From the NCBI RefSeq assembly GCF_020424085.1, contig NZ_CP080203.1, positions 1,550,001 to 1,614,000 on the forward strand: DNA of 64,000 nt, given 5' to 3'. The position numbers were made by a program, and so were the translations under genes. Each line of letters starts with the position of its first letter. Positions within the stretch are counted from its first letter, which is position 1. Below, piece after piece: positions 1 to 15,189 of this stretch. The notes below the pieces were generated by a model. That model was not told where the DNA came from. It was given only the letters and a program-made list of their open reading frames with translations, and made no database searches. The stretch comes from Mycetocola spongiae. GTDB lineage: Bacteria > Actinomycetota > Actinomycetes > Actinomycetales > Microbacteriaceae.

Positions 1-314
1 CCTCATCCACATCAGACTCATCCACGGATTCTGCCGAGGCAGCGCCCGGCACCGCCTCGTCAACGGCATCACCACGACGCGCCACAAAGACCGTCGCCTC
101 CTCGGGCTCCGCATCTTCCGCCTCCGCCGCAGCAGAAGCCTCGACGGACACCGCCGCCTCCGCGCGCATCCGCTGGACAAACACTGTCGCCTCATCCGCA
201 CCGGACTCATCCCCGGATTCTGCCGAGGCAGCGCCCGGCACCGCCTCGTCAACGGCACCACCGCGGCGCGCCACAAAGACCGTCGCCTCCTCGGGCTCCG
301 CAGCCTCCGCGGAG
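1..314. repeat. 189-bp (63-codon) tandem repeat inside the acidic repeat protein
   Basis: Bases 1-125 recur almost unchanged at 190-314, an offset of exactly 189 bp or 63 codons, so the frame is kept. The two copies differ at few positions and both encode EEATVFVARRG followed by a DEAVPGAASAES stretch. A third, more diverged EATVFV motif lies between them, giving a half-period of 31-32 residues. More units may lie to the left of the window. Confidence 0.85.
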
Positions 315-547
315 GCGGGAACCGCGGCGGACGCCGATTCCTGCTCCCCCGCGGATACGCCCCGGGAGCGACGCGATCCCGGCGCGCTGCCCGCTCCGGC
401 GTCTGCGCCGTCTCCGCCGTCTGCGGTCGCGGGGATCCCCGCGGTCCCCTCCGTCTCCCTGACCGCCCGCGCGCGCTCGCGTGCCGCGCGGCGCGAGGAT
501 TCCCCGGACCCGGACTCCCCCGGCGTGGCCTCGTCCCGGTTAGTCAT
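1..547 (-). CDS. Acidic Ala/Glu-rich repeat protein with ATVFV motifs (C-terminus beyond window)
   Basis: This is the last gene seen of the envelope phosphosignalling operon, and it runs off the left edge. ATG at 547 lies inside the end of the PP2C gene (8-bp overlap), which implies translational coupling. The 182 visible codons begin MTNRDEATPG and are rich in Ala, Glu, Ser and Gly, with no membrane segment or fold visible, so the region is probably disordered. The short motif EATVFV recurs with threonines at residues 89, 121 and 152. The FHA protein of the same operon carries the same string (DDATVFV, Thr77). A threonine before hydrophobic residues in an acidic tail resembles kinase acceptor sites such as that of GarA, so these are candidate phosphorylation sites; that is inference. 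The domain following this tail is not visible. Confidence 0.75.
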   Translation of the reverse strand, partial: MTNRDEATPGESGSGESSRRAARERARAVRETEGTAGIPATADGGDGADAGAGSAPGSRRSRGVSAGEQESASAAVPASAEAAEPEEATVFVARRGGAVDEAVPGAASAESGDESGADEATVFVQRMRAEAAVSVEASAAAEAEDAEPEEATVFVARRGDAVDEAVPGAASAESVDESDVDE

Positions 548-1385
548 CGGTCCTCCGTACCTCCGCGGTCGCCGTGACCGAGTGCTCCCAGCCCGAGGCG
601 GTACCCCCGGAGGTATTCTCGCGGCGCATGGGCGCGCCCTCGCGCGCATGCACATCCACCACGATGGCCGAAATATTATCCCGACCCCCCGCCTCATTGG
701 CGAGCCGCACCAGCTCCGATACCGCCGAGCGCGGCCGCCCCGACATCGTCAGGACCGCGCGAATACGCTCCTCCGTGAGCTCATCGTGCAGGCCATCCGT
801 GCAGATCAAAAAGCGCACCCCCGGCACCAGCGGCAGCAGCCAGGAATCCGGCACGCTCTCCTCCGAACCAATCGCCCGGGTGATGATATTGCGCGCCGGA
901 AGGCTCGGGGAATCCCCGGTCACCCCGCGCGCGATCATCTCCGCACGCAGCGAATGATCCGCGGTCAGCTGCACCAGCTCGCTGCCCACATGCTGATATA
1001 CCCGCGAATCCCCCACGTTTAACAGTAGCCAGTTCAGCCGCTCCTCGTGCCGAATCAGGATCAGCCCCGAAACCGTGCTCCCCGCGCCGCGCGGCGTATC
1101 CGCGGCCACGCCACGCACCTCGCGCCGGGCGTCCTCAAGCGCCGCCCATACCTGATCCAGCGTGGCCGGCGCCGATTCCGGCAAACCCGCCAAAAACGCC
1201 TCGGTCACCGCTCGGCTCGCGCGATCCCCCGCATCGTAGCCGCCCATCCCATCGGCCACCAAAAAATACGGACCGCCCACCGCGATCGAATCCTCGTTCC
1301 GGGTGCGCGTGCGCCCGGCATCGCTCAGCGCCGCGGCCTCGCAGGACACCCGCTCCGAGAGCACACTCTCCCCGCTCCACGGCAC
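540..1385 (-). CDS. PP2C-family Ser/Thr protein phosphatase
   Basis: Metal-dependent phosphatase, presumably reversing the operon's kinase. The PP2C motifs are present in order: TRNEDS, VADGMGG, GSTVSG, NVGDSR, CTDGLHDEL and GRDNIS. They supply the usual metal-binding aspartates, so it should be active. There is no membrane segment, so it is cytosolic. The frame stays open to 1451, but that would overlap the upstream FHA gene by 55 bp. GTG at 1385 and GTG at 1364 (GGAG about 10 nt upstream) are more likely starts, and a TTG at 1400 overlapping the FHA stop is also possible. The stop overlaps the start of the repeat-protein gene. Function is clear; the start is uncertain. Confidence 0.9.
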   Translation of the reverse strand: MPWSGESVLSERVSCEAAALSDAGRTRTRNEDSIAVGGPYFLVADGMGGYDAGDRASRAVTEAFLAGLPESAPATLDQVWAALEDARREVRGVAADTPRGAGSTVSGLILIRHEERLNWLLLNVGDSRVYQHVGSELVQLTADHSLRAEMIARGVTGDSPSLPARNIITRAIGSEESVPDSWLLPLVPGVRFLICTDGLHDELTEERIRAVLTMSGRPRSAVSELVRLANEAGGRDNISAIVVDVHAREGAPMRRENTSGGTASGWEHSVTATAEVRRTDD

Positions 1386-1396
1386 CGCGGCGGCAC

Positions 1397-1999
1397 TCAA
1401 CGCGCCGCCCCGTCCGCCGGCGCATCGGCTATCCGCTCGATGCGCATACACACGGTCCCGATCAGCATGCTGCCCAGCACCGGCGTCTCAATATGCGGCT
1501 CGATCGGCACCTCCGTGCCGTCGTCGGCACAGAGCAGCACACCATTGGTCGCGCCCAGATCGGTGATCAGCCAGGAGTCCTCCACAAACCGCAGCCGGGC
1601 ATGGGTCTTGGAGATGGTGCGGCTGGGATCGGGAATGATCAGCGCCTCGGTCCCGGCCAGCGCGCGCGGCTTGCGGCCCAGGATCAGGTCCTCCGCGGGC
1701 AGCTCCAGCGCCGCGCCCTCCTCCGGCACCAGCCGCCAGCGCGGCGGCGGGGTGCGATCCACAAAGACGGTGGCATCGTCCTCCTCGGTCCCCGCCGACA
1801 GCGGCGCGATCATCACCGTGCCCTCCTCGGGAGCCACCCCGCCCTCGCCCGGATCCACATAGGTGGGCAGGGGCGGCGCGGCCCTCCAATAGGAGTTTTC
1901 CAGCACGGCCGGACCGGAAATCTCCCAGTCGTTTTCGGCGGGGGGCGGCGGGGGTGGGACCATCGCGCCCGGAGTCTGTCCGGGATATGTGTTTTTCAC
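1397..1999 (-). CDS. FHA-domain protein with proline-rich N-terminus and ATVFV motif
   Basis: A 200-residue cytosolic protein. The N-terminus is proline-rich and acidic and contains EEDDATVFVDR (Thr77). The C-terminal half is an FHA phosphothreonine-binding domain: ILGRKP, then SRTISKTHARL, then LGATNGV. The layout of a threonine-bearing acidic tail before an FHA domain is that of GarA/OdhI-type kinase substrates, whose phosphorylated tail binds their own FHA domain; applying that here is inference. The GTG start at 1999 has AGGAG at good spacing. The gene begins 11 bp after the transglutaminase-fold gene and precedes the phosphatase gene, so the tail could be a shared target of the operon's kinase and phosphatase. 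Confidence 0.9.
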   Translation of the reverse strand: MKNTYPGQTPGAMVPPPPPPAENDWEISGPAVLENSYWRAAPPLPTYVDPGEGGVAPEEGTVMIAPLSAGTEEDDATVFVDRTPPPRWRLVPEEGAALELPAEDLILGRKPRALAGTEALIIPDPSRTISKTHARLRFVEDSWLITDLGATNGVLLCADDGTEVPIEPHIETPVLGSMLIGTVCMRIERIADAPADGAAR

Positions 2000-2010: not shown

Positions 2011-4557
2011 TTAATCCGCGGGGGTATCCGCGGCTGTGGGTTGATGGGGCCGGCGCGCTGACCGGCGGATCGCGGAGGGTAGCCCGCGCAGCATCGCGCG
2101 CGGATCGATTCCGCCCAGCAGCGACCGCGGGCTCAGCGCCCGCCGCAGCCGTTCGCGGCGCGTGGTCTCCGCGTCCAGCTCGGCCAATTCGGCCTCGGTG
2201 TCCTCCCAGAGGCGGTCCACCGCGGATTCGGAGATATCGCCGCGGGCAAAAACCGCGCGGTCCACCCCGGCCGCGATCTGCCCGGCCCGCGGGCCGCCGA
2301 TCTGTTCGGCCTGGGCCGCGCGCGGCAGCCCCGCGGTAACCGCCATTCCGGCATCGCGCTGCCTATCCAGCAGCTCCGCCCAGGCGCCGAGCGCCCGGAT
2401 CTCCGGGGAGCCCTGCGCGCGTCGCCGCCGATACCGGATCCGTTTAGCCACCGGCAGGAACAGCACCGGCAGCAGGAGCAGGAGCAGCGCCCCCGTCCCC
2501 AGCAGGATCGGGCGCAGCACGGGCCATACCGCGAGCCACCAGGAGGGGCCACGATCGGCATCGGCCTCGCCCGCCTCACCCTCGCCCTGGCTCAGCAGCG
2601 GATCGCTGGACTGCGCGTTCAGGTCCTCGGGCACGGTGGCAAACTCGGGCAGCTGCTCACCCTCGATCAGCTCGATCGGAATATTATCGTGTTGCGGGGT
2701 CGCGTCGATGCTGCGCCAGTTCCGATCCGCGCCGCGCACCTCGATCCACGCCGCCATATTCTCGCCCGTGCACTCCTCGATACATGCCGGGACCCCCGGA
2801 ACGCCGGCGTTCTCGCCGAGCCGCACGCCCACAACCACGCGGGAGTCATAGCCCAGGGCGCGGGCAATCAGCGCCGCGGCGGCGGCAAATTGTTCGTCAT
2901 CGCCCACCGCCGCGACCAGCTGGGCGCCGTCCTGGCCGTCGCCCACCACGCGCTGCTGCCGGTTCAGATCGGAGAAGAGGCCCTCGAGGCGAGAGCCGTT
3001 ATGGCCCGCGAAGCTCGGCGCAAAACGGTAACCATCGGTCTCGGCCAGCGCGGCGATCCAGCGCGAACTGCCCTCCTCGGCGGTGATCGAATGGCTCAGG
3101 AATCCCCGCTCGCGCAGCCGCTCGATCAGGGTGAGCAGGCCGCGCTCATCGCGCGGCTGATCCTGCGCCCGAATCCAGGCGGTCAGTTCGGGGAGCGCCT
3201 CCGCATCGATCTGCGGCCCGGAATGCGCCGGTGCGCCGAGCGCGCCCGCGCCGGGAGCGGTGGGCACCGCGCGCACCCGATAGCCATCCCCGTCACGCAC
3301 GCCGTTTTCCGGGTCCTCGGGCACGGGGGTCACGATGCCCGAGCCCGTGGCGCGGTTAATATAAAAGGTATCCGCGAGGGCCTCGGCGCGCGGGCCGCGG
3401 AACCGCGGCGGCTCGGCGATCTGCGCGGGCAGCGGCAACCAGATCTGCTCATAGCCGGCCTCGATCTGCACGCTCAGCTCCACGGTATCCTCGCCGCCGA
3501 TCCCGCCCGGATAGCGCGTATAGCGCTCGCCCCCGGAGGCGCCATCGGCCACATGAAACTCGCTGCCATCGAAGCTATCCAGCACGGCGATGCGCAGCCG
3601 CTCGGGGAGCGCCCCCGAGGAGGACACCCGAAACAGGGGCCGATCAAATTCGATATCGCGCTTCCAGATGCGATAGCCGGCGAGCGGGCCCGGCTGGGAC
3701 TGCACCACCAGATCGGGATCGATATATTCGCGCGGTACCCGGCGTTCACCCGCCTCGGCCAGCACGGGCGCGGCGGTCAGCGCGGCCCCCACGGCGAGCG
3801 CAAGCAGCAGGATTCCGGCCACGGGCCGCCAGAGGGCACCACGGGTCCGGCGCGCGGACGCGGTATCCGCACCGGCCAGCCCGCGGCCGCGGCGCAGCGC
3901 CGCACGCCGCCCGGATTCCGAGGCCACCCGCACCCAGGCCAGCGCCAGGATAAAGGCCATCCCCCACAGGCCGATCTCCCGGGGCGCGGGGATGCTCGCC
4001 CCGATTCCCGGTATCAGCACCGGGGCGCTCAGCTCGCTCCCGCCCCAGATCAGGCCAAATAGTAGAGGGGCAAAGAGGGGAAGGACCGCGAGCGAGGAGG
4101 CCCGCGGCCCGCCGCCCAGCAGCAGCACCGCGCCGGTTTGGGCGGCCAGGAGCACCACAAAAAACGGCACCAGCACGGCCTGATACTCGCCCACCGGCAG
4201 GCCCAGCGTGAGCAGCTGTTTCCAGCCGGTGACCACGGTGACCAGCCCGTCGCGTTCCCCCAGGAGGATCCCGCGCGGGCTGCCGCCGAGCGCCGAGGGC
4301 ACCGCGAGCGGCACCACGGCCAGCACAAAAATAAGCGGGGCGATCAGAAGGATCCGCCGCGGCGACCAGCCCAGGCGGGTGCGCGCCCAGAGCAGGGCCG
4401 CGGCCATCACGCTGATGGTGGCGGCGATCAGCCAGAGCCGCTCGCTGCGATAGATCGGCCAGGCGGCCGCCACCGCGAGCGCGGCAAAGGCCAGCATCAG
4501 CAGCACCTGCGCCAGATAGCGCGAGAGCGCGGGGGTCTCCCGGGTACGCTTTGACAT
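2011..4557 (-). CDS. Transglutaminase-like membrane protein (TgpA type), probable pseudoenzyme
   Basis: An 848-residue membrane protein. The N-terminal ~240 residues hold about six or seven hydrophobic segments, then comes a long extracytoplasmic part, a C-terminal membrane helix near residues 675-700, and a basic cytoplasmic tail. Residues about 540-625 are a transglutaminase core, recognisable from FAAAAALIARALGY, RVVVGVRLG, AAWIEV and SIDATP. In active members the pattern is G-x-C-x-x-F-A and H-A-W. Here the cysteine position is Asp554 and the histidine position is Ala602; only Asp618 of the triad remains. TgpA-like proteins normally accompany MoxR and DUF58 genes, as here. The ATG overlaps the DUF58 stop (TGATG). 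The fold call is strong; loss of catalysis is inferred from the substitutions. Confidence 0.9.
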   Translation of the reverse strand: MSKRTRETPALSRYLAQVLLMLAFAALAVAAAWPIYRSERLWLIAATISVMAAALLWARTRLGWSPRRILLIAPLIFVLAVVPLAVPSALGGSPRGILLGERDGLVTVVTGWKQLLTLGLPVGEYQAVLVPFFVVLLAAQTGAVLLLGGGPRASSLAVLPLFAPLLFGLIWGGSELSAPVLIPGIGASIPAPREIGLWGMAFILALAWVRVASESGRRAALRRGRGLAGADTASARRTRGALWRPVAGILLLALAVGAALTAAPVLAEAGERRVPREYIDPDLVVQSQPGPLAGYRIWKRDIEFDRPLFRVSSSGALPERLRIAVLDSFDGSEFHVADGASGGERYTRYPGGIGGEDTVELSVQIEAGYEQIWLPLPAQIAEPPRFRGPRAEALADTFYINRATGSGIVTPVPEDPENGVRDGDGYRVRAVPTAPGAGALGAPAHSGPQIDAEALPELTAWIRAQDQPRDERGLLTLIERLRERGFLSHSITAEEGSSRWIAALAETDGYRFAPSFAGHNGSRLEGLFSDLNRQQRVVGDGQDGAQLVAAVGDDEQFAAAAALIARALGYDSRVVVGVRLGENAGVPGVPACIEECTGENMAAWIEVRGADRNWRSIDATPQHDNIPIELIEGEQLPEFATVPEDLNAQSSDPLLSQGEGEAGEADADRGPSWWLAVWPVLRPILLGTGALLLLLLPVLFLPVAKRIRYRRRRAQGSPEIRALGAWAELLDRQRDAGMAVTAGLPRAAQAEQIGGPRAGQIAAGVDRAVFARGDISESAVDRLWEDTEAELAELDAETTRRERLRRALSPRSLLGGIDPRAMLRGLPSAIRRSARRPHQPTAADTPAD

Positions 4558-5957
4558 CAGTTATTCCCCCGGATCAGCAGCTGTCCGAGGTCGCCCACGG
4601 CCCCCACGGTCAGCACGGTTCCGGTATCCACGCGCAGCGCTGCCGGTTCGGCCAGCTGCTGCGCGCGCACCACAACCACGCCGATATTCGCGGCAAAGGC
4701 GGAGGCGGCGCGGCGCAGCCGGGACATATCCGGGATCGACCCGGTCACGATATATACGATCGACAGGTGTGCCTGGCCCTGGGCCACGGTCGCGGCGAGG
4801 CGCTCCAGCCGCGGCCCCGAGGCCACCGCCTCCAGCTCGGCCCAGGAGTCCAGGAGCGCGGGCACCCCCAGCCCGCCGATCTCGGTGACCCCGAGCGGTC
4901 CCGGGCGTCCGCGGTCGGGGCACCAGGCGGAGGCGATATACCGATCGCGCCCGTTGCGCACTGCCTGCACCGAGAGCGAGGCGGCGGCGCTCACGGCCAA
5001 TTCAAACTCCTCATCCGAGGCGTATTCCGCGCGCACCGCATCAAAAAGCACCGCGACGCGGGAGAGCTGGGACTCCTCGTATTGGCGCACCATCAGCGCG
5101 CCGGTCTTCGCGGTGGAACGCCAGTGCACGTGGCGGAAGGAATCGCCGCGCACATAGGCGCGCACGGCGTGAAAGGACAGATCGGAATCGGTCAGCCGGC
5201 GGCTGGACTGGCCCTCCAGATCGCGCACCATCCCCGCGCTATTTTGGGGCAGGGCCGCGATCGCTGGATGTACGTGCAGGAGGTGGCGTTGATTCCAGGT
5301 GACCGCGCGACGAAACAGCCCAATCGGATCGCGCCGGGACACGGTGACCGGGCCCACCGGGATCACCCCGCGCCGCGGCGCCCGCAGCGGCACCGGGATG
5401 CGGCGTTCGGCCCGCGGCCCGAGCAACGGCACCGGGATTTGCAGGATCGCCGGGCCCACGCCGAGCTCCGCAATCGCGGGCAGCGCCGGGCCCGCGGCCA
5501 GATTACGCACCTCGAGCCAGGCGGCGGTGTCCTCGCCCGCAAATACCCGGTCCCGTTCCAGCCCCAGCGTCATGGCATAGGCGCGCCCGCCGAGCAAAAA
5601 CGGTCCCGCGAGCAGCACCAGCGCGAGGCTGAGCCCCGCCAAAAACCAGCCCTCCACCCAGCCCAGCAGCGCGCCGGCCAGCAGCCCGGCCGCGCCGCAG
5701 GCCAGCACAAACCAGCCGGTCGCGGTGACCAGCTCGGCGATGTTTTTCTGCACGCGGATAAGCCGCACGCGCGCGCGGCGCAGCAGCCTTGCGGCGCGGC
5801 GACGCAGCAGCTCGCCGCGTCCCGGCGCGGCCGAACGCACCGCGGTCCGGGTCACGGTGGCCGTATATTCCCCCGCACCCCGGGTCCGGGTGGTCGAGGT
5901 TTTTCTCCGCGTGCGGTGCCGGGTCGAGCCGGTGCCGCGCTCCGTGTTCTCGCTCAC
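4557..5957 (-). CDS. DUF58 domain membrane protein
   Basis: A 466-residue partner of MoxR ATPases. A basic, Thr/Arg-rich N-terminus of about 75 residues precedes two hydrophobic helices (about 78-125). The DUF58 core follows, with the family hallmark AYVRGDSFRHVHWRSTAK near residues 265-285 and a von Willebrand A-like C-terminal part. DUF58 proteins of this layout are taken to be membrane-anchored substrates or adaptors of MoxR AAA+ proteins; their precise role is unknown. The GTG start overlaps the MoxR stop by 4 bp (GTGA) and the stop overlaps the start of the next gene by one base. Confidence 0.92.
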   Translation of the reverse strand: MSENTERGTGSTRHRTRRKTSTTRTRGAGEYTATVTRTAVRSAAPGRGELLRRRAARLLRRARVRLIRVQKNIAELVTATGWFVLACGAAGLLAGALLGWVEGWFLAGLSLALVLLAGPFLLGGRAYAMTLGLERDRVFAGEDTAAWLEVRNLAAGPALPAIAELGVGPAILQIPVPLLGPRAERRIPVPLRAPRRGVIPVGPVTVSRRDPIGLFRRAVTWNQRHLLHVHPAIAALPQNSAGMVRDLEGQSSRRLTDSDLSFHAVRAYVRGDSFRHVHWRSTAKTGALMVRQYEESQLSRVAVLFDAVRAEYASDEEFELAVSAAASLSVQAVRNGRDRYIASAWCPDRGRPGPLGVTEIGGLGVPALLDSWAELEAVASGPRLERLAATVAQGQAHLSIVYIVTGSIPDMSRLRRAASAFAANIGVVVVRAQQLAEPAALRVDTGTVLTVGAVGDLGQLLIRGNN

Positions 5958-6931
5958 TCCGCCGGGTTCTCCTCGGGCACGGGCACGTCCATCAATACCT
6001 GACCGATCACGTCCACCGCGCTGACACCGTCAAACTCGGCCTCGGGTTCCAGTACCAGGCGGTGCGCGAGCACCGCCACGGCCAGCTCCCGCACGTCCTC
6101 GGGCAGCACATAGGCGCGGCCCTGGCAGGCGGCCCAGGCCATCGCCAGGCGCGAGAGCGCAACCGCGCCGCGCACGCTCGAGCCCAGGCGCACCTCGGTG
6201 GCCGCGCGCGTGGCGTCCACGATCCGCATGATGTAATCGGAGATCAGCGGGCTCACATAGGCCTGCCGGGCGAGTGCCGCTGCCTCCACGAGGTTAGCGG
6301 TGGAGATCACCGGGTTCAGGTCGTCCTGATCGCGGTTGAGCCCCTGCAGGATGCGCATCATCGCCGCACCATCGGGATAGCCAATCGAGGTTTTGATCAT
6401 AAACCGGTCCAGCTGGGCCTCGGGCAGCCGATAGGTGCCCGCCTGCTCCACCGGGTTCTGCGTCGCAATCACGAGGAAGGGTGCGTCGATGCGGTGGGTG
6501 GTGCCGTCCACGGTCACCTGGCGCTCGGCCATGACCTCCAGCAGTGCCGACTGGGTTTTGGGGCTTGCCCGGTTAATCTCATCGGCCAGCACCACATTGG
6601 CGAAGATCGGCCCCGGATGAAACTCAAAAACATTCGCGGACTGATCAAATACGGTGATGCCGGTGACATCCCCGGGCAGCAGATCGGGCGTGAACTGGAT
6701 GCGCGAATCGGTGCCCTCCACCGATTGGGCGAGGGCCCGCGCGAGCGCGGTTTTTCCGGTGCCGGGCACGTCCTCAAGCAGCACGTGGCCGCCGGCCAGG
6801 GCCGTGGCAAATACCAGCTGCAGGACGCGGCGTTTACCGTGGATGGCCTGCTCCATATTATCCACCACGGCGCGTTGCACGCCGTGAATCCAGGCTGCCT
6901 GTTCGGTGCTGAGTGCGCCGGATGCGGTCAT
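5954..6931 (-). CDS. MoxR-family AAA+ ATPase
   Basis: A 325-residue AAA+ ATPase with Walker A DVPGTGKTA (about residues 54-62), Walker B VVLADEINRA (about 113-122), sensor ATQNPVE and a PEAQLDRF arginine-finger region. MoxR proteins act as chaperones that activate or insert cofactors into partner complexes, often with DUF58/VWA proteins; the DUF58 gene follows directly. A GTG at 6958 is in frame, but ATG at 6931 is preferred because AAAGGA lies about 8 nt upstream and the family usually begins there. It follows the Ig-like gene after 37 bp. Confidence 0.94.
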   Translation of the reverse strand: MTASGALSTEQAAWIHGVQRAVVDNMEQAIHGKRRVLQLVFATALAGGHVLLEDVPGTGKTALARALAQSVEGTDSRIQFTPDLLPGDVTGITVFDQSANVFEFHPGPIFANVVLADEINRASPKTQSALLEVMAERQVTVDGTTHRIDAPFLVIATQNPVEQAGTYRLPEAQLDRFMIKTSIGYPDGAAMMRILQGLNRDQDDLNPVISTANLVEAAALARQAYVSPLISDYIMRIVDATRAATEVRLGSSVRGAVALSRLAMAWAACQGRAYVLPEDVRELAVAVLAHRLVLEPEAEFDGVSAVDVIGQVLMDVPVPEENPAE

Positions 6932-6968
6932 GAGGGGGTGTCCTTTCGGGAATACCACGAGTGGTGAA

Positions 6969-9900
6969 TCATTTATCGTCCTCGTCCGGGTCCTCGGGCG
7001 GGACAGTACACAGCGGGAAGCTCAGTTCCAGGGGTGGCAGCGCGGAGAACGCGCCGCTCCACGTGATCATCGCAAAACGCAGCCCGGGGCGGGAGGGATC
7101 GCTCATCAGATCGGAGACGCGCGCATCGCGGTTCGCGCCCGCGGTCACCGTCGGAAGCGGCCGCAGCACGGTCTGATCCGCGGCCACACACTCGGCGATG
7201 CCGCTCACGATCACCTCGGTGGGTACCGTGAGCGCCCCCACCGGGACCGGATCGGAACAGCGCGTAAGCTCATCGGCAAAACACTGCCGTGCCTCCACGC
7301 GGGTCGCGCGCGAGTTCGGGTCCAGCACCAGCTCGGATCGCCAGTCGGCGCCCTGCTGCCGGTATTGCAGCACCATATCCGAGAGCACCTCCACCACGGG
7401 GGCGGTGCGCAGGCGATATGCATAGTCCCCCTCGGGGGTGCGCGTGGGCGTGGTGGCGACCTCATAGCCGGAGACCACCACCGGGGTGGGGAGTTTACCT
7501 CCCGTGCGCATCGACACCACGTCGCTGCCCACCACGCCATAGCCGTTGCTCACGCAGGCGCGCACATCGTGATGCCGGCGGCGGCTGAGCCCGGAGAACT
7601 CGCCCGAGGCCAGATCGCCGCTCTCGGCGATCAGCGCCCCGCCATCGTCCACGCGGCATTCGGGCACCGCGGCGGGCCGCTCGGCCACCCGATAGATCAC
7701 GCTCAGGGGCCGGTCGCTGCCATTGGCATCGCCGCCGATTCCCGAGGCCACGAGGCCGGTATCTCCCTCGGCGCGCACGCCGAGACGGCCCGTGATCCGC
7801 GGCGCACCGGCCACCGTGACCGCGGCGGTTCCGCGGTCGCCCTCCGCGTTTCCCCCCGGCATCGGGGGTTCAAAGGCGCTCAGCGGGGTCACCCGAATCT
7901 GGGTGGAGCCCACGGGCAGGGTCATATCGATGATGGTTGTCCCGCCCGAGCGCGGCACCTCGCCCTCGCGTCCGTCGATGCGGAACGCTCGGGTATCCGC
8001 GGCCGCGGCGATGCTCACCCGGACCGAGCCCTGCGACTCGGAGGTCACGCCCGGCTCATAGCGGGGCGCGGCATTCACGGAGTCGATGCGCGGGGCCTGA
8101 TAGGCCCAGGCGGTGACCGGGCTGGTCTCCGCCGAGGCTCCCACCGCGTTCACCGCGCGCGCGGTGAAGCGATGCTGCTGGCCGTTGGTCAGTCCCGTGA
8201 CCTCGCAGCGATACGTGCCCGGGGTGGACGGGGCGCAGCTCGCGGAGGAGGATCCGTCCCCGCCCAGGCGCACGCCGGTCACCTCGGGATGGGCGCCCAG
8301 CGCCTCGCCGAGCGCCACGTCCAGCGTGAGTGAGGAGCCGGTATAGGCGGCCGTGGTGATCGCGGCGGGGGCCTGCGGCAGGCCCTGGGCATCAAATTCG
8401 ATGCGGCCCTCACCCAGGCGACCCTGCGAATCGCGCACGGTAAACGGCACGGTACAGGTGGCCCCATTGGTCTGGCCCGAGGGCCAGGTGATCTCCACGG
8501 CGTCCTCGCCCGCGCGGCCAAAACGGGCCACGGGGCAGGAGGAGCCGCTGATCGAGTCGAGCACCAGCCCGCCGCCGGGTCGCCCGGCAAAGGGATCAAA
8601 TTCCCCCGGAACTCCCACGACGCGCACGCGGCATCCGCCCGCGCCCACCGTGCACTGCGAGGACACGGTGGCGCCCCGCGGGGTTTCGCGCGGGGCATCC
8701 CCCACGCGCAGGATCAGCGTGGCCCGGCCCTCGCCGGCGCCGCGCACGTCCACGATCACGCGCTCCTCGGAGCCGGGCGGAGCATCCGCGCGCGCCACCA
8801 CGCGCAGCACGGTGCCCTCCTGGCTGAGCTGGAAGAGCGAGCCCCGCTCGCCGAGGGAGAAGCGCAGCGCGGACATATCGCCCACGCGGCCACCCTGCCA
8901 GCGCACCATATCGGCGGCAAGATCCACGCTCTCCTCGCCGCCCGGGCGGATCACCCGGGTCAGCCCGTCCAGTTCCACCTGCGGTTCGCGCGGGCTGATC
9001 TGGATCGGCAGGGATAGCGCGGTCCAGCGGTTCTGGCCCGGCAGCCGAACATCGATCAGGCAGCGGTCCTGCCACGGGGCCTCGGCCCCCGCCGAATAGC
9101 GAATATCCTGGCCGGAGGCGCTGCAGGAGGCGGCGGCGCGCTGGGTGGGCAGGGCGCCCGGGCGCAGCTCGATCCGCTCCCCCGGGACGCGCTCCACCAC
9201 GTCCTCCACCGATACGGTCACGGAGTTATTTTCGTCCACCTCAATCGGGCGCAGGCCCGCACGCAGGCCCACCCGGATCTCCTCGAGCGGAGGCACCACC
9301 AGGAAGCCGAAGGTTTCCACGGCGGCCCCGGTATTATCGGTTCCCGCAAGTCGGAAGGGCACCAGGTCGCCGCTCGCGCGATACTCTCCGATCAGCCGCG
9401 GTCCGGCCACCCGGAAGCGCGAGGCCGCGTCTCCCCAGACGCTCAGCGCAAGCCCCTCGGGATCTCCCGAGGACCAGCGCACGCGGCCGGTCAGCACATC
9501 CACGCCGGCCCCCGCGAGCACCGCGCGATCGCGCGCGGTGAGCGTGGTATCGGCCACGATCGGGGCCTGGGTTCCCACCCGGTCCGAGATCTGCACCACG
9601 ATCAGGCCCTCCGCGGTGCTGCCGCTGCGCGTGGAACGCACGGTATAGCGATAGGAGTGGCTTCCGGCATCCGGCCCGGAGTGCAGTACCACGCGGCCGG
9701 AGGCGAGGTCATCGAGGGTGATCATCGCGCGCAGGCGATCGTATTCGGGGGTGCCGGCGGCACCGGAAACATTGGGTTCCACCGAGATCAGTTCAAGCGT
9801 GCCCAGCGTGGGGTCCACGTCGTTTAGCAGCGGTTCCACGGTGGTGGTCGCGGAGGTTCCGCGCATCAGGCGCACCTGATCGCTCACCGTGATCGGCGCG

Positions 9901-12900
9901 CTATCCCGCTCGGCGGCGGCGCTCACGGCGACGCGCAGCTCGCCGGTGGCATCGGCCCCAAAGCCATCGCGCACGGTATAGCCGAGGCGGAGCACGCCGG
10001 GTTCGGCATCCTCGGAGGCCTCCACGAGGATCTCATCGCCGGTGGCGGCCACGGTCGCGGTGATCCGTTCGGAGGAGTCCACCGCGATCAGGCGCACGCG
10101 GTCCCCATCGGGGTCCACCCCGGTGAGCGGGACGGCGACGCGGGTATTTTGTCCCGGCACCAGCCGCGCGGTGAGCACCGCGGGCTGGGGCGCGCGGTTA
10201 TTATCCTCGGCGATCACGTTGACCCGCACCTGGCCGGTATCGCGGCGCTCGGGCGAGTTTTCCAGATAGCTGGAGTAGGTCAGGGTATAAACGCCGGGCC
10301 GATTCGGGGCCAGATAGCGCAGCGTATCGCCGGAGATAAAGGCGAGCTCGCCCTCCGCACCCGAGCCGCCCACCACGGGGTCCAGCAGCAGGCGTTCGGC
10401 GCCCGTGCTGACATCATTGGCAAGCACGTCGATATCCACGACGCTGCCGGCGCGCACGGTGGCATAATCGGCCACGGCGATCACCGCGGAATCGCTCACC
10501 TCGGGGAGCTGAAATACGGTGAGCTGGCCCGTGGCCTGCTCCCCCGAGCCATCGCCGATGCGTAGCTCGGCGGTGCCCACGCGGCCCGCCGCCCCATCGG
10601 GGCTATAGCCGGTCACACGCAGCCGCTCCTGGTTCAGGGTCTGCACGGCCAGATCGCCCGAGCTCACGCTCGCGTCTTCCAGTAGTAGCACCCGGTCGCC
10701 GGGATCGGGCACCGCGTCCAGCACGTTCACGATGGTGTCCTGCTGGGCGCGCACATAGGCGCGCGTGGGCGGCAGGGTCAGCCGCGGCGCGGTCTCGGTC
10801 GCGATCACCCGCAGCTGCCCGCCAAATTCGGTCTGGGTGAGGGTATCGCGCACCGTGAGCTGCACGTCGAAGGAGCCCGCGACGGAGGGTTCCACCTCGA
10901 GGGTCGCGGTGCCCGGCTGCGGGGTGAGCCGCAGCTCGGAGGACCCGGCCCCCTGGGGCAGCACGGCGTCCACGAGCTGGAACGAACCGGAGCCGCCGCT
11001 GGCCTGCTCCAGCGGGTGCAGGCTCAGGCGCTGGCCCACGGGAATCGTGACGGCAGCGGATTCCATCCGGGCGCTCGCTGCAGCGAGAATATTCAACATC
11101 AGGGTGCGTTCGCGCTCGTTGCCATTGGCATCGCGCACCACGATATCCACTGCAATCGCTGCATCGGCGGCATTGGGATCGGTATGGCGCACGGCGACGC
11201 GGCCGTCCTCGGTGGCCACCACGCGCACGGGGGCCTCGGGATCGCGCGCGCGGGCCGAGGCGAGAAATAGCGGATCGCCCTGGGGGTCCACCCAGCCGGC
11301 GAGAATCGGCAGCACCAGCGTGCCGCCGGGGGTCAGTTCGGGGCTCGGCCAGGCCAGCTGGCAGCCCTCCACGCCACACCATTCAGGCGCGCTATCGGTG
11401 CCCTCGGGGGCCACCGTGAGCGTGACCGTCGCGGGTTCCGAGACGTGGGTGCCATCGGTGATCTGATAGCTAAAGCTCGCCGTTCCACCGGCGTTTTCGG
11501 CCACCCTGATCGCGAGTCCCTGCGCGCCCGGGAGCACCTCCACGGCACCAAATTCGGCGGGGCTGATCGCTCCGATCAGCTCGGGGATAATCGTGAGGAT
11601 GTCCTTGCGGTTGGGGTCATAATCATTCAACAGCACGGGCAGCAGCGCGTGTCCTCCCGCGCGCACCCCGAAGCTATCGGGCACGGCCACGGGCGGCAGC
11701 GATTCGCTCACATCCTCCACCACCACGGTTCCGCTGTCCTCGCGCGGGGGCTGCGCGAGCGTCCACAGCGAGAGCGGGATCAGGGTGCCCGCGGGCAGGG
11801 TCCACAGCATTCCGGTATCGCGTTCGCTCAGCACCGCTCGGCTGCCATTGCTCTGGATCACCGGGTTCAGGCGGCGGCCCGCGGCCCCGGCCTCGGGGTC
11901 ATAGTCCAGGGTGGTGGTCGCGCCGCTCGCGGAGGACCACAGGGTGCCCTCGGCGGCGTCGAGCCACGCGGCATAGCGCTGCCCGTCCACGCCGCGCGGG
12001 CGCGCGGGAATCCCCGCGGCCTCGACCAGGCGTTCGGGGGCCTCGCCGCCGGCGACCTGCCAGAGTCCGCGGCTATCGGCGATCAGGAGCGGTTCCTCGC
12101 TGCCCGCCGAGGCATGCTGTAATTTGGCGTCCTCGCCCAGCTCCAGGGTCACGGGCTGGCCGATTCCCTGCCGCCAGAGGGTGCCCGATTCGGGTTCCAG
12201 CAGGGCCCAGTCGCCGCCGCTCAGGGTCAGCTGGGGGTCGCGTGCCGCGGCGGCCTCCCGGGGGACCGCGCGCGTGCCGCCCGTGAACTCGCCGCTGGCT
12301 GCGTCATAGGTGCGCACGGCGCGTTCCTCCGCGGAGAACAGGGCCAGCCGCCCGCGCTCGTCCAGGGCGATGGCCGTGGCCAGATAGCCCGCGTTGCTCT
12401 CGCCCGAACCGGCGCTCTCGGTATCCCCCGCCGACTGCTCGGCGTCGGGTTCCTCGGGGCCCGCCGCCGCGGTGCCGGCGAGCGGGTCGATCCGGGTGGC
12501 CCCGGCGATCCGGCCCGCGGCGGTGCCCTCGCGCAGCGAGAGTCCCCCCTCCGCGGCCTGCCCGGGATTATCCTCCAGGCGCCCGGCATAAACCTCGCCG
12601 TTTTCGGTGCGCAGCGCAAAATAGGGTCCCGCGCTCAGCACCTCGCGGGTTCCACTCGGGGTGTTCTCGGCCTGGGTGGAGCGGGCCTCGCTCGCCGCGC
12701 TGGCGCCCTGATCCCCCGCCTCGGAATCGCCGGAGCCCGCGGTATCCAGGGCAAAATCGGCGGGGAATGCCGGGTTGATGGGCCAGGCCCGGCTCAGCCC
12801 GGAACCCAGGATGATGCCGTTTTCTCCCGATTGCAGGACCTGCGCGGGCTCCACCGCCTGACGCACGGTATCAATCTCGCCGGTTTCGGTATTCACCCGG

Positions 12901-13094
12901 GCATACTGGCCGGAGTCCCGGGTCACCCAGACGGAGGTTTCCAGCCGGGGCAGCTCGCGGGTATCAAAGCCCTCGGCAAAAACCGCGAGGGTCACAAGCA
13001 TCAGCACGGCCACGCCGCCCGCGATCCCCGCGATGAGTTTTTTTCTGCCGCCGATGCGGGCTTTGCGCGCGCCGCGCGTGGAGAGCCAGGACAC
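6969..13094 (-). CDS. Giant membrane-anchored Ig-like/fibronectin-type envelope protein (2041 aa)
   Basis: Residues about 19-41 form one hydrophobic helix after a basic N-terminus with no evident cleavage site, so the rest probably lies outside the membrane. Residues about 45-460 have a beta-rich pattern with acidic Ser/Gly-rich inserts. From about 470 there are many beta-sandwich units of cadherin/Ig type, seen in recurrent phrases such as PVLLNDYDPN, DIDVLANDVS, GVDPDGDRVRL and PLLNDVDP. A fibronectin-III-like domain lies near 1575-1665 (GLTNGQQHRFTARAVN). The C-terminal part has several cysteines, possibly disulphides. It is co-transcribed with a kinase, MoxR and DUF58, so it may be the surface structure these proteins control. 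GTG start overlaps the kinase stop (TAGTG). No specific ligand can be predicted. Confidence 0.88.
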   Translation of the reverse strand: MSWLSTRGARKARIGGRKKLIAGIAGGVAVLMLVTLAVFAEGFDTRELPRLETSVWVTRDSGQYARVNTETGEIDTVRQAVEPAQVLQSGENGIILGSGLSRAWPINPAFPADFALDTAGSGDSEAGDQGASAASEARSTQAENTPSGTREVLSAGPYFALRTENGEVYAGRLEDNPGQAAEGGLSLREGTAAGRIAGATRIDPLAGTAAAGPEEPDAEQSAGDTESAGSGESNAGYLATAIALDERGRLALFSAEERAVRTYDAASGEFTGGTRAVPREAAAARDPQLTLSGGDWALLEPESGTLWRQGIGQPVTLELGEDAKLQHASAGSEEPLLIADSRGLWQVAGGEAPERLVEAAGIPARPRGVDGQRYAAWLDAAEGTLWSSASGATTTLDYDPEAGAAGRRLNPVIQSNGSRAVLSERDTGMLWTLPAGTLIPLSLWTLAQPPREDSGTVVVEDVSESLPPVAVPDSFGVRAGGHALLPVLLNDYDPNRKDILTIIPELIGAISPAEFGAVEVLPGAQGLAIRVAENAGGTASFSYQITDGTHVSEPATVTLTVAPEGTDSAPEWCGVEGCQLAWPSPELTPGGTLVLPILAGWVDPQGDPLFLASARARDPEAPVRVVATEDGRVAVRHTDPNAADAAIAVDIVVRDANGNERERTLMLNILAAASARMESAAVTIPVGQRLSLHPLEQASGGSGSFQLVDAVLPQGAGSSELRLTPQPGTATLEVEPSVAGSFDVQLTVRDTLTQTEFGGQLRVIATETAPRLTLPPTRAYVRAQQDTIVNVLDAVPDPGDRVLLLEDASVSSGDLAVQTLNQERLRVTGYSPDGAAGRVGTAELRIGDGSGEQATGQLTVFQLPEVSDSAVIAVADYATVRAGSVVDIDVLANDVSTGAERLLLDPVVGGSGAEGELAFISGDTLRYLAPNRPGVYTLTYSSYLENSPERRDTGQVRVNVIAEDNNRAPQPAVLTARLVPGQNTRVAVPLTGVDPDGDRVRLIAVDSSERITATVAATGDEILVEASEDAEPGVLRLGYTVRDGFGADATGELRVAVSAAAERDSAPITVSDQVRLMRGTSATTTVEPLLNDVDPTLGTLELISVEPNVSGAAGTPEYDRLRAMITLDDLASGRVVLHSGPDAGSHSYRYTVRSTRSGSTAEGLIVVQISDRVGTQAPIVADTTLTARDRAVLAGAGVDVLTGRVRWSSGDPEGLALSVWGDAASRFRVAGPRLIGEYRASGDLVPFRLAGTDNTGAAVETFGFLVVPPLEEIRVGLRAGLRPIEVDENNSVTVSVEDVVERVPGERIELRPGALPTQRAAASCSASGQDIRYSAGAEAPWQDRCLIDVRLPGQNRWTALSLPIQISPREPQVELDGLTRVIRPGGEESVDLAADMVRWQGGRVGDMSALRFSLGERGSLFQLSQEGTVLRVVARADAPPGSEERVIVDVRGAGEGRATLILRVGDAPRETPRGATVSSQCTVGAGGCRVRVVGVPGEFDPFAGRPGGGLVLDSISGSSCPVARFGRAGEDAVEITWPSGQTNGATCTVPFTVRDSQGRLGEGRIEFDAQGLPQAPAAITTAAYTGSSLTLDVALGEALGAHPEVTGVRLGGDGSSSASCAPSTPGTYRCEVTGLTNGQQHRFTARAVNAVGASAETSPVTAWAYQAPRIDSVNAAPRYEPGVTSESQGSVRVSIAAAADTRAFRIDGREGEVPRSGGTTIIDMTLPVGSTQIRVTPLSAFEPPMPGGNAEGDRGTAAVTVAGAPRITGRLGVRAEGDTGLVASGIGGDANGSDRPLSVIYRVAERPAAVPECRVDDGGALIAESGDLASGEFSGLSRRRHHDVRACVSNGYGVVGSDVVSMRTGGKLPTPVVVSGYEVATTPTRTPEGDYAYRLRTAPVVEVLSDMVLQYRQQGADWRSELVLDPNSRATRVEARQCFADELTRCSDPVPVGALTVPTEVIVSGIAECVAADQTVLRPLPTVTAGANRDARVSDLMSDPSRPGLRFAMITWSGAFSALPPLELSFPLCTVPPEDPDEDDK

Positions 13095-14227
13095 TAGGCA
13101 CCCCCGCCGAGCACGCGGGTCAGGAGGAATCCGGCGAGGCCCAGGATCAGCATGCCGCCGGCGCCGAGGCCCAGCGCGGCCCCCGTGGACAGCGAACGTT
13201 TTTTCTCGGGCCGGGCGCGCGTCGCTGTGCGCGAGGTTGTGGCCTGGCCGCGGGCATTTTCGCGGGCCACGCGGCGCGAATCCGGGCGCACCGTGGAGAC
13301 CACGGGGCCGCGCAAACGATCGTCATCGCCGCGCGGGGCCGCGCCGGCCCACTCCTCGGAGATCACATCCACCGGGGTCACGTCATAGCCGTAGAGCCGC
13401 TGCATCGCCCGCAGCGCCTCGGCAAATTCCAGCATGCTGCCATAGCGTTCCTCGGGGTTTTTCCGCAGGGCCCGCGAGAGTACCTCGTCCAGCTGGCCAT
13501 AGGATTCGCCATTGGGCAGCCCCACATAGAGGGCGCGGCTGATGCGGGCCGCGAGGCGGCGGCGCTCGTTTTGTTCCCGGTCCGGGGATTCAAACGGCGA
13601 TCTTCCGGCGGCGAAGGTATAGAGGGTGGCGCCGAGCGACCAGATCTCGCTCGCGACAGAACCGGAGATTTTGGTCTCCACCACCTCGGGGGCGGCCCAG
13701 GGATAGGACAGCGCGATCTGCTCGTGTTCGCGCACGGCGCCGCGCACCTCGGCGATGCCAAAATCGGCCAGGACCGGGCGGCCCAGCGCGGTGACCAGCA
13801 CATTGGAGGGTTTAATATCGCGGTGTAATACGCCGCTGCGATGCGCGGTTTCCAGCGCGCCACATAGGCGCACGCCCACGTCGAGGATCTGTTCCAGGGT
13901 CAGCGGGGTGGCCTTCATCCGCGTGCGCATGGTCTCGGGGCAGAACTCCATCGCGATAAACGCGCGCCCATCCGCGGAGATGCTCGCCTGATAGATCGAG
14001 ATGATCGCGGGATGCGCGCTCAGCCGGGCCATCACATCGGCCTCGGCCTGGAAGGCATGCCGGGTGCGTTCGGTCCACGCCGTGCCGTCCAGCACCTTCA
14101 CCGCGACCACGCGGCGCGGCATGTCCTGCTCATAGAGGAATACCTCGGCAAAGCCCCCGGCGCCGAGCGGGCGCACATAGGTATGGCCGGCGATCACCGG
14201 TGGGGTGCGCGGGGTGCGGCGGGTCAT
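13094..14227 (-). CDS. Membrane-anchored Ser/Thr protein kinase without sensor domain
   Basis: The kinase domain occupies residues about 17-290: glycine loop GAGGFAEVF, Lys44 in VAVKVLD, HRDIKPSN with Asp137, DFG at 155-157 and APE at 179-181, so catalytic residues are complete. The stretch from DFG to APE contains no threonine and only Ser174, unlike PknB-type kinases that autophosphorylate on activation-loop threonines. A Lys/Arg-rich linker leads to one membrane helix (about 350-372), and the protein ends five residues later, so there are no PASTA repeats or other extracellular sensor. Input may come from the adjacent giant envelope protein; this is inference. The ATG overlaps the upstream FHA stop by 4 bp. 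Confidence 0.93.
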   Translation of the reverse strand: MTRRTPRTPPVIAGHTYVRPLGAGGFAEVFLYEQDMPRRVVAVKVLDGTAWTERTRHAFQAEADVMARLSAHPAIISIYQASISADGRAFIAMEFCPETMRTRMKATPLTLEQILDVGVRLCGALETAHRSGVLHRDIKPSNVLVTALGRPVLADFGIAEVRGAVREHEQIALSYPWAAPEVVETKISGSVASEIWSLGATLYTFAAGRSPFESPDREQNERRRLAARISRALYVGLPNGESYGQLDEVLSRALRKNPEERYGSMLEFAEALRAMQRLYGYDVTPVDVISEEWAGAAPRGDDDRLRGPVVSTVRPDSRRVARENARGQATTSRTATRARPEKKRSLSTGAALGLGAGGMLILGLAGFLLTRVLGGGA

Positions 14228-15189
14228 TTCGGGTCCTCCCCGGTGTCCTGGGTTTCGGGCGAGCGCGGGCCCTCGGTACTCTCCCCGCTCCGGTCGATCA
14301 CGCGAATCTCAAAATCCTCGCCGAGTTCCAGCCGGTCGCCATCGCGCAGGGTGGTCTCGGCGCCCTCGATCAGGTGGGTGGTGCCATGCGCGCCGTTCAC
14401 CAGGGTGCCGTTTTTGGAGGCGAGGTCGCGCGCCAGCAGGCCCACCGCAGTGGGCACCAATTCGAGGTGTCGGGCGGAGATCTCGCGGCGCGGTGACCCG
14501 ATCCGGATCCGAATCAGCCCGTCGCCGCCGCGCGTTCCGTCATCGGGGGACCCGCGGCGGCGACCGAAGCGGATGCGCTGATCCACGAGCAGTTCCCGCC
14601 CATCGGGGAATCCCAGCCACCAGTTACTCTCGGTGGGCACGGGATCGGTGCAGGGCGCGGGTTCATCCGAGGGGAACATCACGGCAAAGGCATTGGGGTC
14701 CAGCACGGGGGCGGCGGCCGGGGCTGCCAGCGCCACGGCCCCGGGGTTGCCTATGCCGGCGCGCGCGGCACCATAGCCTCCCCGCTCGGCGGTGCGCACG
14801 CCCACCAGGGCGGCGCGGACGATGCCGTGTCCCAGCGGCAGCAGGCTCAGCTCCGCGGAGGGGCCGTCCTCGCCGTGGCCGGGGAGGGAGAGCAGCGGGC
14901 GCTCGGCATAACCGTGGAGTTCCAGATCCCCGGCGAGCCCCATCCGTTCGCCGCCCTGGGCCTGGGGCACCAGCGTCACGAGTCCAAACGGAATCTCGCC
15001 GCAACGGGAGGCGAGTTGGCGCACCAGATTTTCGGCCGTGAGTTCAGCATCGTGCCTCGCGCGCGCGAGCAGCAAAAAGACCTCGCGCGCGATTTCGGGC
15101 GAGGCGGAGGGCGGCAATAAACACAGTCGCGGGCCCGTGGCAACGGCATAACCCGGCTGCGAACTCGCGGAATCGGCATAGACGAACAC
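14224..15189 (-). CDS. FHA-domain protein, first gene of the envelope operon
   Basis: A 321-residue cytosolic protein. Residues about 1-175 match no family I recognise; residues about 200-305 are an FHA phosphothreonine-binding domain with IRFGRRR, REISARHLEL and LASKNGTLVNG. It should read phosphothreonines made by the neighbouring kinase. The GTG at 15189 follows a 224-bp divergent gap shared with the phosphohexomutase gene, so the operon promoter should lie there; no clear -35/-10 pair stands out. The stop overlaps the kinase start by 4 bp. Confidence 0.9.
   Translation of the reverse strand: MFVYADSASSQPGYAVATGPRLCLLPPSASPEIAREVFLLLARARHDAELTAENLVRQLASRCGEIPFGLVTLVPQAQGGERMGLAGDLELHGYAERPLLSLPGHGEDGPSAELSLLPLGHGIVRAALVGVRTAERGGYGAARAGIGNPGAVALAAPAAAPVLDPNAFAVMFPSDEPAPCTDPVPTESNWWLGFPDGRELLVDQRIRFGRRRGSPDDGTRGGDGLIRIRIGSPRREISARHLELVPTAVGLLARDLASKNGTLVNGAHGTTHLIEGAETTLRDGDRLELGEDFEIRVIDRSGESTEGPRSPETQDTGEDPK

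Follow-up and report, generated by a model that had tools for sequence, protein, structure and literature searches.

The last gene of a kinase operon in Mycetocola spongiae encodes a protein with 16 copies of a short threonine motif, and the same motif stands directly before the FHA domain of another protein of this operon. In the explanation that best fits the data, and which we consider probable, the motif is phosphorylated by a kinase, bound by FHA domains and reset by a PP2C phosphatase on a tail-anchored scaffold; here phosphorylation, the responsible kinase, FHA binding, the topology in the membrane and an effect on secretion are all inferred from sequence. The window analysed is 64 000 nucleotides long and corresponds to C1:1550001-1614000 of a genome that consists of one contig of 3.2 Mb (Table 1).

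The edge of the window truncates the array gene, and the partial protein begins at position 547 on the minus strand (MTNRDEATPG...). The complete translation contains 16 TVF[VIL] motifs set in acidic sequence, spaced 28-36 residues apart, with the threonines at positions 89, 121, 152, 184, 214, 246, 277, 309, 340, 372, 402, 438, 466, 494, 529 and 558, followed by a Pro/Ser/Glu-rich stretch and then a C-terminal hydrophobic helix; 13 of the 16 motifs, the Pro-rich linker and the C-terminal transmembrane (TM) tail lie beyond the window. The protein matched no family in Pfam or NCBIfam (E 0.001), and no paper describing it was found in the non-subscription literature searched. Its predicted C-terminal TM helix suggests that it is tail-anchored. 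The initial annotation had placed Thr89, Thr121 and Thr152 in EATVFV and Thr77 of the FHA protein in DDATVFV; translation bears out both placements, with spacings of 32 and 31 residues in the array, and an alignment of orthologues agrees for Thr77.

Table 1. Coordinates of the array gene, its operon and the related FHA-array gene; plain numbers are window positions
Feature	Position	Strand	Basis or remark
Thr-array protein, N-terminal 182 codons	1..547	-	Window translation; motif Thr89, Thr121 and Thr152 inside window
Thr-array protein, full 802 aa	C1:1548139-1550547 = L009:13139-15547	-	DNA left of window
ATVFV codons, Thr152	87..101	-	Translation
ATVFV codons, Thr121	180..194	-	Translation
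ATVFV codons, Thr89	276..290	-	Translation
PP2C-type phosphatase	540..1451	-	Pfam PF13672; start codon uncertain; 8-nt overlap with array gene
FHA protein	1397..1999	-	Pfam PF00498; alignment A4; AF2 model; fold matches
Transglutaminase-like membrane protein (TgpA-like), PFNA 'tgm'	2011..4557	-	Pfam PF01841; alignment A1
DUF58 protein	4557..5957	-	Pfam PF01882
MoxR-type AAA+ ATPase	5954..6958	-	Pfam PF07726
2041-aa membrane protein, Big_9/cadherin-like Ig domains	6969..13094	-	Pfam PF17963
Ser/Thr kinase, C-terminal TM segment, HRD and DFG intact	13094..14227	-	Pfam PF00069; alignment A3
Second FHA protein, first cluster gene	14224..15189	-	Pfam PF00498
Five-motif FHA protein	L189:16978-18996 = C1:1024977-1026995	-	DPDxTVVRPQ-type motifs in cis

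The first eleven array motifs derive from a tandem repeat. A 189-bp in-frame duplication had been proposed initially; the repeat is real, yet it comprises about five to six diverged units and not a single duplication, since Tandem Repeats Finder detects 5.6 copies of period 189 at L009:14254-15302. The units are 70-88% identical and each carries two motifs. When like copies were compared, the motif codons (-2 to +5) showed 17 synonymous versus three non-synonymous differences, and the flanks 25 versus 65 (Fisher p = 3e-6, the copy pairs being non-independent). We conclude from this contrast that the motif is held by selection and is more than a copied sequence; judged from these substitutions, its codons are under purifying selection within the array.

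The motif is also concentrated in the operon. Pattern searches in six frames of the whole genome returned 19 matches to [DE]xTVF[hydrophobic], of which 17 fall in the operon (16 in the array and one in the FHA protein) and two in folded enzymes, one acyl/AMP-ligase-like and one acyl-CoA-dehydrogenase-like; the reversed control pattern had no match in the same genome-wide, six-frame search. Other genome-wide matches to the consensus (pantothenate-kinase-like, PspC-like and in antisense frames) were discarded as lying in folded domains or non-genes.

Scanning of named genomes with the transglutaminase alignment yielded 80 loci, from Mycetocola, Leucobacter, Microbacterium, Leifsonia, Agromyces, Cryobacterium, Demequina and others, and nearly all complete loci retain the kinase-Ig-MoxR-DUF58-transglutaminase set, with FHA and PP2C genes in most. 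Array orthologues, defined as the gene after PP2C, could be extracted from 59 loci; a hydrophobic C-terminal helix is present in 59 of 59, a hydrophobic C-tail having been a criterion of selection, and PSxxRRxRR precedes it in most. These orthologues keep the form [DE]-x-T-[VIR]-V-V-x-R, and vary in copy number and surroundings. The 59 proteins and the window protein together contain 216 strict motifs, against a mean of 3.6 and a maximum of 10 in shuffles that ignore the relatedness of the loci and were scored with regular expressions tuned after inspection of the sequences, an effect so large that neither the tuning nor the relatedness is likely to matter for the motif itself. Strict motifs occur in 55 of the 60 proteins (zero to seven per orthologue, and 16 in the window protein), and the apparent zero-motif proteins mostly have variants such as DETIVTPR and DDLTVVQPRR. 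The profile of the motif is acidic from -6 to -2, Ala or Arg at -1, Thr, three Val, any residue and Arg; Arg occupies +1 in 17% of motifs, and a basic residue at +5 is nearly fixed. The strict motif occurs in none of the kinase, Ig, MoxR, DUF58, transglutaminase, EccB, EccD and MycP orthologues. One locus from another family of the same order (L187) encodes a short form with two motifs and a TM tail. Loss of the motif amid conserved surroundings, which the initial annotation had named as evidence against its proposal, is the reverse of what we observe: the 59 loci keep the motif and the surroundings diverge.

A selfish tandem expansion of an acidic low-complexity repeat, in which the motif has no function and its sharing with the FHA protein is due to chance, would account for the 189-bp tandem units and the highly variable copy number. 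It is very improbable, being contradicted by conservation: the motif codons mostly change synonymously, dozens of species keep the motif but not its flanks, and independent copies exist in the FHA protein and in a second FHA-array gene. Chance or low-complexity origin was rejected on the basis of the genome-wide pattern counts, the conservation in orthologues and the selection on the motif codons.

The central residue of the motif is almost exclusively threonine. In the context [DE]xX...R we counted Thr 177 times, Ala five times and Ser never, in proteins whose overall contents of Ser (6.3%) and Thr (6.7%) are about equal. FHA domains are specific for Thr over Ser, and a Thr-only centre is as expected of an FHA ligand. 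Ser/Thr kinases, on the other hand, usually tolerate Ser to some degree, so that exclusion of Ser favours an FHA reader over a plain substrate. If the motif were only a substrate or docking site of the kinase, the array would buffer the activities of kinase and PP2C as a phosphate sink or decoy and recruit no FHA protein. This is rather unlikely, because the full exclusion of Ser and the copy right before an intact FHA domain are better explained by a reader, even though the kinase and PP2C share the operon, the PP2C tails of relatives bear a related motif, and the motif resembles actinobacterial kinase sites. Its flanks are similar in composition to the PknA-dependent sites of Mycobacterium tuberculosis, which have acidic residues at -1 and from -3 to -6, Leu or Val at +3 and Lys or Arg at +4 (PMC7164672).

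The hydrophobic VVV/VFV core could also act as an unphosphorylated beta-addition motif, and this counts against our preferred explanation. The motif would then be a beta-strand ligand (acidic-x-T-V-V-V-x-R) adding to a beta-sheet of a partner such as MoxR, DUF58 or EccC, as its beta-branched TVVV/TVFV core and almost fixed +5 basic residue might suggest. We regard such a ligand as unlikely, given that the central Thr is strict, that the Arg found at +1 in a minority of motifs fits a beta-core poorly, and that the motif occurs in the FHA protein, a reader of phospho-Thr, and in related form in PP2C, its eraser.

The FHA protein carries EEGTVMI and DDATVFVDR (Thr77) in its N-terminal tail, the latter immediately in front of the FHA domain. 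An alignment of 30 orthologues that had been chosen for presence of the motif (A4) shows no variation at Thr77 and Arg82, nor at the phospho-Thr-binding residues G108 R109, S130, H133 and T151 N152 G153. The GR, SxxH and NG of the binding face are intact in 64 of 64 FHA proteins, from which the FHA domain is predicted to bind phospho-Thr. In these 64 proteins the strict pattern finds the motif in 46-48, usually 31-33 residues upstream of the FHA 'GR'; most others have variants such as DRTVVAPRR, and those of L091, L098 and L101 lack it. The AlphaFold2 model shows an FHA sandwich at residues of about 87-190 (pLDDT about 96) and places Thr77 in a low-confidence tail, which is probably disordered. 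Thus the proposal that array and FHA protein share a recurrent phosphoacceptor and FHA-ligand motif gains support from the conservation of the motif, its Thr-only centre and the invariant Thr of the FHA protein. In the window species both also share Phe at +2 (16 of 16 array motifs and the FHA copy, versus none of 208 orthologous array motifs), which is suggestive as a single case. Strict residue-by-residue covariation between FHA and array motifs was considered and is not general (e.g. EATVVVDR versus ERTVIVDR in L113).

The phosphatases of relatives end in acidic-Thr tails resembling DDTTIPVR or DETLEVTRPVR. A related motif is present on 39 of 62 PP2C tails, compared with 3.4 in shuffles, for a pattern that was picked after inspection; the tail of the window species is weaker (SVTATAEVRR). 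This conserved acidic-Thr C-tail (L044-L148) has apparently not been reported previously.

Fold and profile searches matched the FHA domain to Rv0020c, GarA, OdhI, MDC1 and DgcB, several of which have been solved with phospho-tails. GarA and OdhI, whose targets are metabolic enzymes, use an ETTS motif. GarA (Rv1827) and OdhI resemble the window protein in their fold and as actinobacterial FHA proteins whose N-terminal tail bears a phospho-Thr site, a predicted one in the window protein; however, the ETTS of that family was not found in the window FHA protein, whose motif is DDATVFVDR, and the acidic-x-TVVVxR motif is placed immediately in front of the FHA domain and recurs on a separate, multi-copy membrane protein. 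FHA domains capture the phospho-Thr of a membrane partner in FhaA-MviN (Rv0020c-Rv3910; 3oun), and one on an N-terminal tail in MDC1 and Bdellovibrio DgcB (3unn, 6hc1), but all three involve single phospho-Thr sites, in contrast to the arrays of up to 16 described here. TIFA offers an analogy only, in that an N-terminal Thr together with an FHA domain could chain molecules head to tail; it is non-homologous beyond the FHA fold and has no membrane-anchored array partner.

On the minus strand the genes are ordered FHA, kinase, Ig/cadherin-like protein, MoxR, DUF58, transglutaminase, FHA, PP2C and array, and are tightly packed; neighbouring genes overlap or stand apart by about 11 nucleotides at most, the start of PP2C being uncertain. 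The operon kinases have no conserved activation-loop Thr (AxSxPW[SA][SA]PEV), unlike PknB, and their activation may therefore differ from that of PknB. The operon resembles the PFNA operon of Bifidobacterium, pkb2-fn3-aaa/MoxR-duf58-tgm-prpC-hypothetical-fha, in which Pkb2 has been reported to phosphorylate the MoxR protein (PMC8430577). Kinase, large surface protein, MoxR, DUF58 and transglutaminase form the same set in the same order, as seen from Pfam matches in the window and synteny in most of the 80 loci, and PP2C and FHA genes are added to them. We call the operon PFNA-type rather than PFNA, because the surface protein matches Big_9/cadherin-like Ig models in Pfam and no FN3 domain was found in it. 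The core genes of the window are 23-55% identical to those of Bifidobacteriaceae-like loci, and the 2041-aa Ig protein, with 23-26% identity at the same position, is the counterpart of the Bifidobacterium FN3 protein. The Bifidobacteriaceae-like loci have an FHA protein with DSTVL before the FHA domain and PP2C tails ending in sequences like DATVQT or DATLQT. The gene order differs, the window FHA gene preceding PP2C and the tail-anchored Thr array replacing gene 7 as the last gene. In the sampled Bifidobacteriaceae-like loci the gene after PP2C encodes an LRV-like repeat protein with neither a Thr array nor a TM tail, and four such loci led us to reject PFNA gene 7 as the array protein. The gene 7 proteins of these loci (L178, L180, L181 and L182) carry an LRV-like repeat region (NPxxYPxLxxWL) at each end and are rich in Gln, Ala and Pro in between. 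Also set aside were order-level clusters of MoxR-DUF58-transglutaminase followed by FHA-PP2C-kinase (L149-L157), which have no Thr arrays and resemble the fhaB-pstP-...-pknB region.

In the mechanism that we propose, the Ser/Thr kinase of the operon would phosphorylate the Thr of the [DE]xTVFVxR short linear motif, FHA domains of the cluster would bind the phosphorylated motif, and the operon PP2C would reset it. A disordered, cytoplasmic N-terminal array would be held at the membrane by the one C-terminal TM helix, and its phosphorylation would turn it into a surface on which the FHA protein can dock multivalently. The FHA protein has its own copy of the motif right in front of its FHA domain and may therefore also bind itself, either in cis, as a GarA/OdhI-like switch, or in trans, by MDC1/TIFA-like chaining, and so compete with or extend the array. 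In relatives, the motif on the PP2C tail would bring the phosphatase to the array platform. The phosphorylated array would thereby collect the FHA protein, and perhaps PP2C, close to the MoxR/DUF58/transglutaminase complex and, in loci that have one, to the type VII secretion machine. The likely purpose would be to cluster and switch the MoxR-DUF58-transglutaminase-Ig membrane complex, and the platform would probably also switch the adjacent type VII secretion machine. The genome encodes further kinases of the operon-kinase family, so a kinase other than that of the operon may be responsible. Most of what is known of multivalent phospho-Thr/FHA scaffolding comes from DNA-damage and immune signalling in animals. 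If our explanation is true, it provides a bacterial case of such scaffolding, a function for the unannotated last gene of PFNA-type operons across Microbacteriaceae and Demequinaceae, and a kinase-reader-eraser motif that is recognisable by sequence alone, and it allows direct tests, in harmless soil species, of whether phospho-Thr controls type VII secretion in actinobacteria.

Convergent to the operon are genes for EccD and EccB, both above the Pfam cut-offs, and for a mycosin-like S8 peptidase. EccC is encoded close to the operon at C1:1530317-1532329 (above the NCBIfam cut-off), and two ORFs (L009:8330-8623 and L009:8662-9072), recognised by size and sequence and unscored, are WXG100-sized. 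With EccB, EccC, EccD, MycP and WXG100-like genes present, the neighbouring region is identified from its gene content as an actinobacterial type VII secretion cluster. Beside the WXG100-like genes lie two closely similar, tandem mycosin-like S8 peptidase genes (L009:4481-6079 and L009:6468-8228, minus strand), in addition to the mycosin gene at L009:11795-13123, and the cluster also includes a gene (L009:2047-3069, minus strand) whose product is predicted to be of the secreted type and contains a long low-complexity tract of Asp, Glu and Gly (DEDGDED). Secretion control is the weakest step of the mechanism, because type VII genes are adjacent in only 22 of the 80 loci, as scored by EccB. The review of the PFNA operon does not mention type VII secretion (PMC8430577), and the non-subscription literature searched yielded nothing on MoxR, DUF58 or FHA proteins together with it beyond the PFNA papers, and no paper that connects these operons with it.

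We only tentatively extend the phosphorylation mechanism to the whole tail-anchored family, as polyvalent phospho-Thr platforms: a single motif would be common to one kinase, one phosphatase and one FHA adaptor, whose multivalent assembly at the membrane, possibly as a condensate, would switch type VII secretion and the MoxR/transglutaminase surface complex on or off. It is possible, short of probable, that the array is instead a phosphorylation-regulated organiser of the transglutaminase/Ig surface complex at the membrane cortex, unrelated to type VII secretion. The array is still present in most loci without adjacent Ecc genes (38 of 59), as such an organiser would be; within the window genome, a single case, each of the two Thr-array clusters has an EccC gene at a distance of about 4-18 kb, and a third cluster of this type has neither an array nor a nearby EccC, which argues for the link to secretion.

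That genome has two MoxR-DUF58-transglutaminase-kinase clusters besides the window operon. The one at about 1.01-1.03 Mb encodes, just upstream of its kinase, a protein in which five related motifs (GDPDLTVVRPQK, GDPDQTVLRAVP, EDSDLTVVRGRG, PEETIIRR and PDPESTVLRE; e.g. of the GDPDLTVVRPQ type) are joined to an FHA domain. About 4 kb away is a second EccC-like gene (C1:1030945-1032843). This fusion of array and FHA domain in cis is the best circumstantial support for a joint action of Thr arrays and FHA domains. The other cluster, at about 1.28 Mb, is of the MoxR-DUF58-transglutaminase-kinase-PP2C-FHA type, and no array and no nearby EccC were found in its region (L188, C1:1276500-1296499). 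A genome of the same genus (G001) encodes a further FHA protein with DKTIFVRR directly before the FHA domain (L175, about 2020-2045, plus strand); its gene lies ~6 kb upstream of the operon kinase, and the motif shares Phe at +2 with those of the window species.
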